A stretch of DNA of 64,000 bases from Pseudanabaena mucicola FACHB-723 (GCF_014696385.1 NZ_JACJQB010000004.1:62001-126000); one strand, 5' to 3'. Shown: positions 44,588 through 48,706, numbered from the stretch's first letter. Program-made: numbers and translations. Notes: generated from the sequence alone by a model not told the origin.

Positions 44588-45754
44588 ATGGTTTTACCTC
44601 AACAGCGATGGCAGATTTTCTCACCTCAACCAGAGTTGTCAGAGACGATTGCCAGTTCAACGGGACTTTCACCGATAATTGCGCAGGTTTTGTTAAATCG
44701 GGGTATTAATAGTCCCGAAGCTGCCAAAATCTTTCTTGATCCTGAATTAGAGGCACTACCCGATCCTAAGCGAGAATTTCCTGATTTAATTACTAGTATT
44801 GACTGTATTGAGCGGGCGATTAAGAATTGCGATCGCATTGTTATCTGTGGTGACTACGATGTTGATGGGATGACTAGTACGGCTTTGCTCATTCGTACCC
44901 TGCGTTTATTAGGTGGCATTGTCGAATATGAGATCCCCAGTCGCATGACTGAAGGCTATGGAATTAATCAGCGTATTGTTCAAGATTGTTGCGATCGCAA
45001 CGTCAAATTAATTATTACCGTGGATAATGGCATCGCTGCCTATGAGGCAATTGCCCTTGCCAAATCATTAAATATTTCTGTAATTGTCACCGACCACCAC
45101 GAAGTCCCCGAAGACACTAGCAAAATCCCCCCCGCAACGGCAATCTTAAATCCTAAATATCAGGTTGCACCCGATTCTCCCTATGCTGCGATCGCAGGTG
45201 TCGGTGTCGCTTACGTGTTGGCGTTGGAATTAAGCGATCGCTTCGGCAAACGTGCCGAATTAGAGAATCCTTTATTAGAATTATTCACCCTTGGCACAAT
45301 CGCCGATCTTGCTTCACTCACAGGTATTAATCGCCGATTAGTCAAAAAAGGTTTACGCCTACTATCGCAATCTAAAGTAATTGGCATTATTGCCCTGATT
45401 AATGAAACGGGAATTGCTAAGGATAAACAAACAGGTTTAAAACCTGAAGCGATTGGGTTTGGACTAGGACCGCGTATTAATGCGATCGGGCGAATTGGTA
45501 ATCCGCAGGTAATTATTGATTTGTTAACCTGCGAGGACATGGGGCAAGCGATTATCTTGGCTCAAGAATGTGAAGCCACCAATCGCCAGCGCCAAGATCT
45601 TTGCAAAGAGATTGAACAAGAAGCAATCGCCTATATGTCAAAGCTCAAATCAGAGGGCTTTGATATTACTCAAGAGCGAGTTTTAGTAATAGTTGATCGG
45701 GAGGTGCAGGATACTCTCTATCCTGATCCCAAGGGAAACAAAGAAATGGCATAG
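44588..45754 (+). pseudogene. recJ: recJ 5' half (DHH domain), truncated by insertion
   Basis: Encodes the N-terminal half of RecJ, the 5'-3' single-strand exonuclease of recombination and repair. DHH phosphoesterase motifs are present: VICGDYDVDGMTSTAL (85-100), ITVDNGIA (143-150), VTDHHEVP (168-174), and TLGTIADLASL. Homology stops at VLVIVDRE (codon 372, ending 45703); 16 non-homologous codons follow to a stop. The next RecJ residues (GWHHGVIG) are found 1.76 kb downstream at 47462. A 12-bp hairpin (45736-45747 with 45757-45768) overlaps the new stop. The nuclease domain is intact but lacks DHHA1 and the OB part, so activity alone is doubtful. Confidence 0.9.
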
Positions 45755-45793
45755 CTATTTCTTTGTTTGAAAACCCTTACTGAGTTTAGTTTT

Positions 45794-45830
45794 CAATTCA
45801 CAAACATTGTGGTCACACTTTTGTGAATTG
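45794..45830. promoter_or_regulatory. inverted repeat upstream of Uma2 gene
   Basis: CAATTCACAAA (45794-45804) and TTTGTGAATTG (45820-45830), a perfect 11-bp inverted repeat with a 15-nt spacer, about 33 bp before the Uma2 ATG. May be an operator or part of the inserted segment's border structure. Confidence 0.4.
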
Positions 45831-45862
45831 GTATTATGAAGTTTAAGTTAGGTAAAGTCATT

Positions 45863-46507
45863 ATGAACACATTACTCAAACCAGCCTCAAGCCAACTAAA
45901 CACATGGATTAGTGCCTCTTGGACAGAATTTGTGGCGATCGCCGATGCAACCGATAGTGGCAAATGCAAAAGTTACTATTACAACCACCAGATGAGATTT
46001 GAGGATATGTCCACAGGTTCCGATCACGCCAAAGTTCACATGACCATCATTATGATTGTGGGATTGTTTGCAGCAATGCGAAGCATTCCACTCAATGGAC
46101 ATGATGCCTGTTCCTATCGCCAATTAGGAAAAATCGAATTTCAGCCCGATGTCTCCTACTACATTGGTGACAATGCCGATGCGATCGCTTGGGGAACGCG
46201 CATCATTGACCTCGAGCAATATCCCTTACCCGATCTTGTCATCGAAATATCTGACACTACCTTCAACGATGACCTCGGCACAAAACGCCTGCAATACGAA
46301 GAACTAGGCATCAAAGAATATTGGATCGTCAATGTCCAAACTATGAAAATCTATGCCTTTGCGATCGCCCCAGATGGCAGCAGCCATCATATTCGCCAAT
46401 CCCTAGTGCTATCTGGACTAAAACTCGAAATATTAGAACAAGCTCTCGAACGCAGTCGCCAAGAAAATCAATCAACCGTCACTGCATGGCTAATGAAGCA
46501 ATTCTGA
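45863..46507 (+). CDS. Uma2 family endonuclease-like protein
   Basis: A Uma2/DUF820 protein of 214 residues, the PD-(D/E)XK-fold family greatly expanded in cyanobacteria with no firm function. Core: GKIEFQPDVSYYIGD, LPDLVIEISDTTFNDDLGTKRLQYEELGIKEYWIVN, containing the D-ExS-K pattern. I start at ATG 45863 (MNTLLKPASSQL), with AGGTAAAG upstream; ATG 45836 is also open. This gene lies entirely inside the DNA that splits recJ, so it is part of the insertion. The frame is intact. Confidence 0.85.
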   Translation: MNTLLKPASSQLNTWISASWTEFVAIADATDSGKCKSYYYNHQMRFEDMSTGSDHAKVHMTIIMIVGLFAAMRSIPLNGHDACSYRQLGKIEFQPDVSYYIGDNADAIAWGTRIIDLEQYPLPDLVIEISDTTFNDDLGTKRLQYEELGIKEYWIVNVQTMKIYAFAIAPDGSSHHIRQSLVLSGLKLEILEQALERSRQENQSTVTAWLMKQF

Positions 46508-46567
46508 TGAGTGCTAAAGATTGAGAAGTTTGCCAGTTTGGAAGGAAGCAACTTAAGGTAGGAGCAA

Positions 46568-48706
46568 ATGGAAATAAAGTCAACAAATTTTAGTTTTTTG
46601 CGCGAGCATGATCCACAATTGGTAAACCTTGCTGCCCGTGCTGAACTGTATTTCCATAGCGACAGTAATACCTGCATCATCAAACTGCGACAATTTGCCG
46701 AGCGTCTTGCCCAGCACATCGCCGACCAGAGAGGGCATTATCAAGCAGAAGATGAAGCACAAGTAGATTTGCTAAGACGACTTGAAGCAGAAGGTATCAT
46801 TTCTAGTAAAGTCTCTAAACTTTTCCATAACATTCGCAAAGGAGGCAACAATGCCGCTCATACAGGCAAAGATGACAGCCGCCAAGCCCTCACTCTCCTC
46901 GAAAATGCGCATGAGTTAGGCATCTGGTTTCATCGCGAATTTGGCAATGACAGAAATTTTAGGGCAGGAGCATTCGTGCCACCTGCTGCGCCCACCGATG
47001 CCACCGCCGAATTGATAGCCGAAATTGAAAGACTGCAAAGGATCGCCAATGATAGTCAATCGGCTGTCGAACGATCTCGCCTTGAAGCTGAACAGAAAGA
47101 GATCGCCCTGAAATTTGCTGAAGAAAAAGCCCGTCAAGCTGAAACAGAAAAGCAACGATTGGCACAAATGGTGAGCGAAAAAGAACATCAACTAGCACAG
47201 CAAAGTACCAATCAAACTGTCACGCCCCAACAACCTGCGGATATCCTCAATCGCTCACAAATTTTTGACCAAAATATCGATCTCGATAAAGATTCAACCC
47301 GTCAAGTTATCGATCAAAAACAAAAGTTACGCGATCAAAGTTGGAAAATCGATCCCCCTCCCAAGAAGGAAAAAGCACTCACTCCGATCTCCTCTAGCAA
47401 AAGGGAAAAAGCCCTCATCCCCAGCCCCTCTCCCAAGAAGGGAGAGGGGAGCAAGACTAGGGGGTGGCATCATGGCGTGATTGGGATTGTCGCTTCGCGG
47501 TTGGTGGAACGTTATGGCGCACCTGTATTTATTGGCAGTTATGAAGATGCCCATGATGATGATTCTGAACAATTTGCCACTGTGCGATTCTCGGTAAGGG
47601 GAATCCCTGAATTTCATGTTTTTGAGGCGATCGAATATGAGCCGATTAAGAGTATTCGTCTTAAAGGTGGTGGACATAAGGCGGCGGGAGGTTTTACCAT
47701 GCCTGCGGCAAATTTGGAGAAACTGCGGCAAGGTCTGCGAGAATTTGCCGATCGCGAAAATATTTTACCCAGCCACATTAGCCCCCTAATTAATATTGAT
47801 GTTCGCGTCGATCTCAGTGATATCTCAATGACACTTCTGCAACAATGCGATCGCCTGCAACCTTGCGGACTCGGCAATGCTGATCCTGTGTTTTATAGCG
47901 AAAATGTGCGCGTCATTTCCCAACAAACTCGCGGCAAGGATAAGGTCAAGCATCTATCTCTAGAGCTTGATACGGGTAACGGTAAAATCAAAGCGATCGC
48001 ATGGCGTTGGGGCGAATATTGCCCTGTCCCTGATTATGTGGATATTGCTTACAAGTTACGCGCTAATCAGTGGCAAGACACAACCTCTGTGGAGTTAGAA
48101 GTCGTTGGTATTCGTGAGGCAACAGTTGCCAAACCACAAAATAGCCACAATCTGCCCAAACATCTGCAACTGCAATATAAACCTGCGCCCGTAATTACCA
48201 AATTCCCGCAGTGGCAAAAACTCAGTGAAGCGCCACGTCCTTTACCCCGACCATTATTGCTATATGGTTGCGAACGTCCAGCCGATCGGTTTCAAGGTGA
48301 TGTTGATTATGATCGTCCAGATCGTAATCGAGTCGGGGGAGATGGTAATTATCACGCAATTGTCTTGTGGACTTTGCCACCATCATTCACCCATTTACAG
48401 TGGTTAGTTGCCACAGCGAAGCCAGACTATATCTATCTAGGCTCCCATATTCCCCCAATTCCTTCGTCTGAGCAATTTCGCGCCCAAGTGCAATCCCTTG
48501 ATTTAGAGAATATAGGGCAACTAAATCTATTAGATATCTCACAGCAATGGTGGATGTCTCCGAGTGCGATTGTTTCGGCTTTGCGTGAACTGAATTACAT
48601 CTGCGAGTTTCCACCGACATTACCCCTTGAAGGAGAACTGCTCAGAATGCAAAAATGGTACGGAATTGCGATCGCAAAACTTGCTTTACTATTTGAACAA
48701 AAGTAG
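46568..48706 (+). CDS. chimeric protein: HsdR-like N-terminus fused to RecJ C-terminal half
   Basis: A 712-residue fusion. Residues 1-260 match the N-terminus of large HsdR-type restriction helicases: a DUF4145-like helical domain (LVNLAARAELYFHSDSNTC, RKGGNNAAHTG), a coiled coil at 147-212, then QNIDLDKDSTRQVIDQK, where the HsdR nuclease domain would begin and instead stops. Residues 262-297 are Pro/Lys/Ser-rich, the translation of an intergenic CCC/GGG repeat. From G299 (GWHHGVIGIVASRLVERYGA) to the end it is RecJ: KGGGHKAAGGFTM is the DHHA1 motif, followed by the OB region. Whether it complements the N-terminal half in trans is unknown. Confidence 0.85.
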   Translation: MEIKSTNFSFLREHDPQLVNLAARAELYFHSDSNTCIIKLRQFAERLAQHIADQRGHYQAEDEAQVDLLRRLEAEGIISSKVSKLFHNIRKGGNNAAHTGKDDSRQALTLLENAHELGIWFHREFGNDRNFRAGAFVPPAAPTDATAELIAEIERLQRIANDSQSAVERSRLEAEQKEIALKFAEEKARQAETEKQRLAQMVSEKEHQLAQQSTNQTVTPQQPADILNRSQIFDQNIDLDKDSTRQVIDQKQKLRDQSWKIDPPPKKEKALTPISSSKREKALIPSPSPKKGEGSKTRGWHHGVIGIVASRLVERYGAPVFIGSYEDAHDDDSEQFATVRFSVRGIPEFHVFEAIEYEPIKSIRLKGGGHKAAGGFTMPAANLEKLRQGLREFADRENILPSHISPLINIDVRVDLSDISMTLLQQCDRLQPCGLGNADPVFYSENVRVISQQTRGKDKVKHLSLELDTGNGKIKAIAWRWGEYCPVPDYVDIAYKLRANQWQDTTSVELEVVGIREATVAKPQNSHNLPKHLQLQYKPAPVITKFPQWQKLSEAPRPLPRPLLLYGCERPADRFQGDVDYDRPDRNRVGGDGNYHAIVLWTLPPSFTHLQWLVATAKPDYIYLGSHIPPIPSSEQFRAQVQSLDLENIGQLNLLDISQQWWMSPSAIVSALRELNYICEFPPTLPLEGELLRMQKWYGIAIAKLALLFEQK
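47353..47449. repeat. translated CCC/GGG intergenic repeat at the HsdR-RecJ junction
   Basis: Two units starting CCCTCCC/CCCTCATCC, the second ending in a perfect 10-bp hairpin CCCCTCTCCC (47425-47434) with GGGAGAGGGG (47440-47449). This repeat type is normally intergenic in cyanobacteria (compare 3381-3460). Here it is open in frame and encodes the linker of the fusion. Confidence 0.75.

Follow-up and report, generated by a model that had tools for sequence, protein, structure and literature searches.

The recJ gene of Pseudanabaena mucicola FACHB-723 is divided between two open reading frames, and its halves most probably work jointly, as a two-subunit RecJ. We put at about three in four the probability that RecJ consists here of two assembling polypeptides, that the split arose once, through a uma2-hsdR insertion, and that it spread by recombination. 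Strong selection on both halves, combined with jumps between species, argues for a two-part enzyme that a mobile insertion has spread, and not for a damaged gene. The locus (Table 1) lies in a window of 64,000 nucleotides, the whole stretch of DNA that was analysed, from a genome (G000) of 3.96 Mb in 94 contigs. For comparison, 58 related genomes were searched and the loci then read, the genus set comprising 26 Pseudanabaena genomes. In the open-access literature, we found no paper on split RecJ in Pseudanabaena.

Table 1. Features of the split recJ locus (44588-48706), numbered from the first nucleotide of the window
Feature	Position	Strand	Remarks
recJ N-half	44588-45754	+	388-aa ORF; DHH domain, linker helix, first DHHA1 strand
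Inverted repeat spanning the N-half stop codon	45736-45768	+	15-nt arms, 3-nt loop
uma2 (DUF820/COG4636, PD-(D/E)XK-like nuclease)	45863-46507	+	alternative start at 45836
AGGAG, Shine-Dalgarno-like, 5' of the C-half ORF	46560-46564	+	from reading the sequence
Fusion ORF, 712 aa	46568-48706	+	HsdR N-terminal region, linker and RecJ C-half
HsdR N-terminal part (DUF4145 and coiled coil), aa 1-264	46568-47359	+	compared with HsdR of G001
Linker carrying an in-frame palindromic repeat	47360-47461	+	repeat core 47423-47449
recJ C-half	47462-48706	+	remaining DHHA1 (motifs VI, VII), OB fold, C-terminal region
Split-type allele tract, ~420 nt	47465-47884	+	tree of the tract separates split from intact alleles

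An earlier note on this DNA had RecJ homology ending with VLVIVDRE at 45703 and resuming with GWHHGVIG at 47462, after some 1.76 kb carrying a Uma2 gene. These coordinates are correct, the interval 45704-47461 measures 1758 bp, and the Uma2 gene is confirmed. Beyond VLVIVDRE, the N-half runs into a tail, VQDTLYPDPKGNKEMA. The N-half matches positions 2-338 of the TIGR00644 recJ profile and the C-half positions 336-543, and the halves therefore make up one complete RecJ. The metal-site motifs GDYDVDG, TVDNG, TDHH and TIADL (DHH motifs I-V) are present in the N-half, and SVRG and GGGHKAAGG (DHHA1 motifs VI/VII) in the C-half, which also matches PF02272 and PF17768 (OB fold); the roles of the RecJ motifs (metal binding; motifs VI/VII) are taken from PMC4846377. 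The HsdR-like N-terminus noticed between the halves is indeed there, but it is not a standalone fragment: it is joined in frame to the RecJ C-half, in a single ORF preceded by a good ribosome-binding site, and terminates directly before the region where the full 1104-aa HsdR of G001 goes on. Likewise, the hairpin over the new stop codon exists but is not conserved as such, with relatives having other hairpins at that place, and a terminator scan of the window did not call it. The observation that the insertion had left neither a transposase nor a direct repeat at the junctions holds as well; as regards insertion sequences, the locus has no transposase ORF, terminal repeats or target duplication.

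The split is widespread in the genus, being found in 14 of the 26 Pseudanabaena genomes, with recJ intact in the remaining 12. The insertion occupies an identical site, in a DHHA1 loop, in all 14 genomes; each of their N-halves has the tail VQDTLY, with near-identical coding DNA, directly after VDRE, and the stop codon invariably follows 7-19 residues past VDRE. Cultured or collection strains are among them (UWO311, P. cinerea FACHB-1277 and P. tenue FACHB-1050). Split alleles in so many independent genomes rule out an assembly error. The suggestion that the arrangement is a recent lesion has to be abandoned: relatives share it as two long-standing genes, and split alleles occur in several independently sequenced genomes, including one in a single contig (G023). 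Three genomes have the halves on different contigs: two metagenome assemblies (G007 and G013) and the isolate P. cinerea FACHB-1277 (G001), where contig geometry places them at least ~90 kb apart. The assembly G013 also holds an extra RecJ N-terminal fragment (L083, G013:C245:21-656), 55% identical, which is probably contamination from another cyanobacterium.

The intact alleles of the genus are themselves unusual at this point. The residues on either side of the insertion, described earlier as directly adjacent in an intact RecJ, are joined in this way (VDRE-GWHH) in other genera, but intact Pseudanabaena RecJs carry an in-frame linker of ~10-66 aa at the same loop as the split, often a translated palindromic repeat (PSPSPxGEGSK). 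The palindromic repeat in the linker of the window, AGCCCCTCTCCC-N-GGGAGAGGGG, has 10 exact copies genome-wide, compared with 0 for a reversed-pattern control. In several relatives, recJ contains this repeat translated in frame, in the manner of the Rickettsia palindromic elements. In the AF2 model of the intact SR411 RecJ, the linker (residues 372-437) has pLDDT <50 and lies between a strand (365-368) and a helix (439-453), and the break is predicted to fall in a disordered loop that connects the first strand of DHHA1 to its first helix. The AF2 model of the C-half fusion (pLDDT 41) was too poor for use. In Deinococcus RecJ numbering, the split is at ~340, inside DHHA1, which spans residues 328-424 of that structure (PMC4846377).

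A precise and conserved insertion site is also what might be expected if splicing of RNA or protein restored a single RecJ, the insertion being an intron or intein. We consider this extremely improbable, given that the interrupted locus has no Rfam match to a group I or group II intron and its ORFs no match to an intein domain, that the in-frame HsdR fusions differ and have their own starts, and that the halves are on separate contigs in the three genomes named above.

Both the N-half and the C-half are under purifying selection close to the level of intact RecJ. Median pairwise dN/dS is 0.060 in split versus 0.074 in intact alleles for the N-half, and 0.107 versus 0.081 for the C-half; for the DHHA1 tract alone, the values are 0.098 and 0.052, a difference that could reflect mild relaxation or adaptation. 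The C-half frame is free of stop codons in the 14 split species and has been maintained across linkers of several lengths. Selection on the HsdR part is relaxed (dN/dS 0.55), and nearly all of this part has been lost in G012, G001 and G007, while the C-half keeps an in-frame ATG and a length of 445-450 aa. It is therefore the C-half polypeptide that is being selected, with the HsdR part best regarded as its leader. The same observations make it very unlikely that the N-half, with its DHH domain, works alone as RecJ and that the C-half belongs to a chimeric HsdR-like protein, as the resemblance of the DUF4145/coiled-coil region to the N-terminus of type I R-subunits might suggest: it is the HsdR part that is relaxed and nearly lost in three genomes, and the RecJ C-half that stays.

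A search of the window genome for a second RecJ returned a paralogue (G000:C16; 37% identity, 788-aa frame), and it might be argued that this protein does the work while the split recJ decays as a pseudogene. The presence of the paralogue in nearly all genomes and the roughly twofold higher DHHA1 dN/dS of split alleles would fit such decay; nevertheless, given that each half has an overall dN/dS close to the value for intact alleles, that the C-half frame is uninterrupted and tolerates several linker lengths, and that the catalytic and DNA-binding motifs are retained, we regard it as unlikely. Moreover, nearly every intact relative has the paralogue too, which therefore did not arise as compensation and is no replacement, and the takeover by another exonuclease contemplated in the earlier note is not needed. 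Cooperation of the halves in trans, which that note also proposed, is supported by the sequence data: the arrangement recurs in 14 species with purifying selection and the catalytic motifs maintained, the C-half frame and start outlast the loss of the HsdR part, and the halves can reside apart.

A second gene of interest was noticed outside the window. The gyrB gene of G000 (L223, G000:C78:22142-25354) has a frame of 1086 aa and homology that extends across 3.2 kb, suggesting an intein of ~430 aa. Similarly long gyrB frames occur in G002, G006, G007, G020 and G022, and most other genomes of the genus have gyrB of normal length.

The distribution of the split does not follow the species phylogeny. 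The split state requires 9 changes on the rpoB+gyrB species tree, against 8.9 expected at random, and 1 change on the tree built from the proximal 420 nt of the C-half; we therefore conclude that a single split allele of single origin has moved repeatedly between species together with ~400 nt of its right flank. In the tree of the proximal C-half, the division between split and intact alleles has UFBoot support of 99 (84 on third codon positions alone), the trees of the distal C-half and of the N-half need 8-9 changes, and in AU tests the distal data reject the proximal topology, as the proximal data do the distal one. Sister pairs illustrate the pattern: G012 (split) and G005 (intact) are 19% diverged over 372 nt and 3.6% beyond, and G008 and G018 are 22.6% diverged over 420 nt and 5.7% beyond. 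Breakpoints on the right flank are mostly 372-441 nt from the junction, and the tracts on the left flank are short or variable. Certain pairs of intact alleles show recombination breakpoints in recJ too. Rooting the proximal tree with other genera yielded no ancestral state for the genus, and the HK gene tree was left out of the analysis, as stop codons upstream had corrupted its codon alignment. By analogy, this spread by recombination resembles the behaviour of homing elements.

If the spread is homing, the Uma2 protein would be the candidate driver. COG4636, which we take to be equivalent to Uma2/DUF820, is the family to which the gene at the break belongs. A study of 2005 predicted that its proteins are selfish and proliferate like homing nucleases by cutting DNA (PMC551604). 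Residues P104-D105, E137 and K150 of the Uma2 of the window (numbered from the 45836 start) fit the published PD-EXX-K site (PMC551604); the real start is probably 45863, because most relatives have an Ile codon in place of the ATG at 45836. Of the hallmarks of homing, we found a fixed site (14 genomes), co-conversion of the flank with lateral spread, which is a pattern also compatible with ordinary recombination, and an encoded nuclease with its active site intact in 12/12 complete copies at recJ and under selection (dN/dS 0.20, between the values of the HsdR part and the RecJ halves). That the spread is driven by Uma2 cutting intact recJ is a possibility that we regard as somewhat less likely than not. 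Slightly more tentative is the fuller proposal that Uma2 is a chromosomal homing endonuclease that cuts the DHHA1 loop, with an insertion that stays unspliced, a host protein that becomes two-subunit and a co-adapted part of the C subunit that travels with the insertion. We hold homing to be doubtful because ordinary recombination could yield the same trees, because Uma2 genes elsewhere are exchanged too, and because the breakpoint near the DHHA1/OB boundary may mean co-adaptation: the first part of the C subunit may have to travel with the insertion, and the tract would then not reflect repair of a cut. Low synonymous divergence of Uma2 at recJ was dropped as proof of homing, since a control at other Uma2 loci gave the same low dS.

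An evenly balanced prospect is that the split RecJ is functional but has spread passively, by general homologous recombination (natural transformation), with Uma2 and HsdR as leftover cargo. Such passive spread shares the two-subunit part of our explanation and differs in the driver of spread alone. The Uma2 and HsdR segments are indeed mosaics whose closest partners differ, Uma2 copies at other loci likewise show exchange, and mere remnants of Uma2 persist next to the N-half in G007 and G013. Less easily accommodated are the exact match between allele class and the 400 nt adjoining the insertion, the similar extent of the transfers, and the conservation of Uma2 with its PD-EXX-K residues. Within Uma2, residues ~65-92 (window ~46028-46111) exist as two alternative blocks, KVHMTIIMIVGLFAAM... 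or NDHALILFALSFYAAT..., which have been swapped among otherwise near-identical copies, including those at other loci; the block is perhaps a specificity or recognition segment.

The genome of P. cinerea FACHB-1277 (G001) bears on the source of the insertion. Behind its N-half come a PAS/GGDEF gene, uma2, a full-length hsdR and hsdM (PAS/GGDEF and hsdM named from translations), and its C-half, on the other contig, is preceded by uma2 and hsdR remnants, the layout to be expected had the recJ insertion recombined with a type I restriction locus. We infer that the insertion originated from such a locus. In the two-subunit explanation, a uma2-hsdR piece of a type I restriction locus would have entered the loop once, the break being placed where the intact alleles of the genus are also lengthened. 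The N subunit (DHH domain, linker helix and first DHHA1 strand) would carry the metal site, the C subunit (remaining DHHA1, OB fold and C-terminal region) would carry the DNA-binding motifs VI and VII, and the dispensable HsdR-derived leader would supply the start codon and ribosome-binding site of the C subunit. The two presumably assemble and have nuclease activity as a pair. Thereafter, the split allele moved between species, recombination replacing the site and ~400 nt of the right flank.

The closest precedent is nrdA of phage Aeh1: the homing endonuclease gene mobE divides it, and its two polypeptides form an active enzyme (PMC2988022). T4 topoisomerase gene 60 is split by mobA, and gene 43 of Aeromonas phages is also split; reassembly of two polypeptides has been shown for NrdA and gp43, and homing brings co-conversion of the flanks (PMC2988022). 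As in these cases, the recJ break has a nuclease gene at it and lies in a functionally critical region of the host gene. However, the phage systems involve phage genes and HNH or GIY-YIG nucleases, whereas recJ is a chromosomal repair gene of a bacterium, the nuclease at its break is of the COG4636/Uma2 family, and one half has an in-frame leader from HsdR. The Uma2 at recJ belongs to the same Pfam family, with the same PD-EXX-K pattern, as the putative selfish COG4636/DUF820 nucleases of cyanobacteria, but for those genes no preferred genomic site or association was reported (PMC551604), whereas the recJ copy sits at a fixed site in many species. The N-terminal 264 aa of the fusion are like those of a type I HsdR (PRK11448-like) with an adjacent uma2, the uma2-hsdR order being intact in G001, but the rest of HsdR is gone and the remnant is fused to RecJ. 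Finally, mitochondrial cox2 of Campsomeris has undergone insertional fission into complementary genes, with a putative nuclease in the insertion (PMC5374615). The arrangement is similar to that of recJ; however, cox2 is organellar and confined to one lineage, without evidence of the repeated lateral spread seen here.

Uma2 genes abound in cyanobacteria, first-look candidates numbering as many as 54 in a single genome of our set, and are not known to have a role. The recJ copy, fixed in position and moving laterally, offers a concrete test of the homing-like proposal of 2005. At the same time, a split recombination nuclease for which intact sister species are available as controls provides a model for how broken proteins function.
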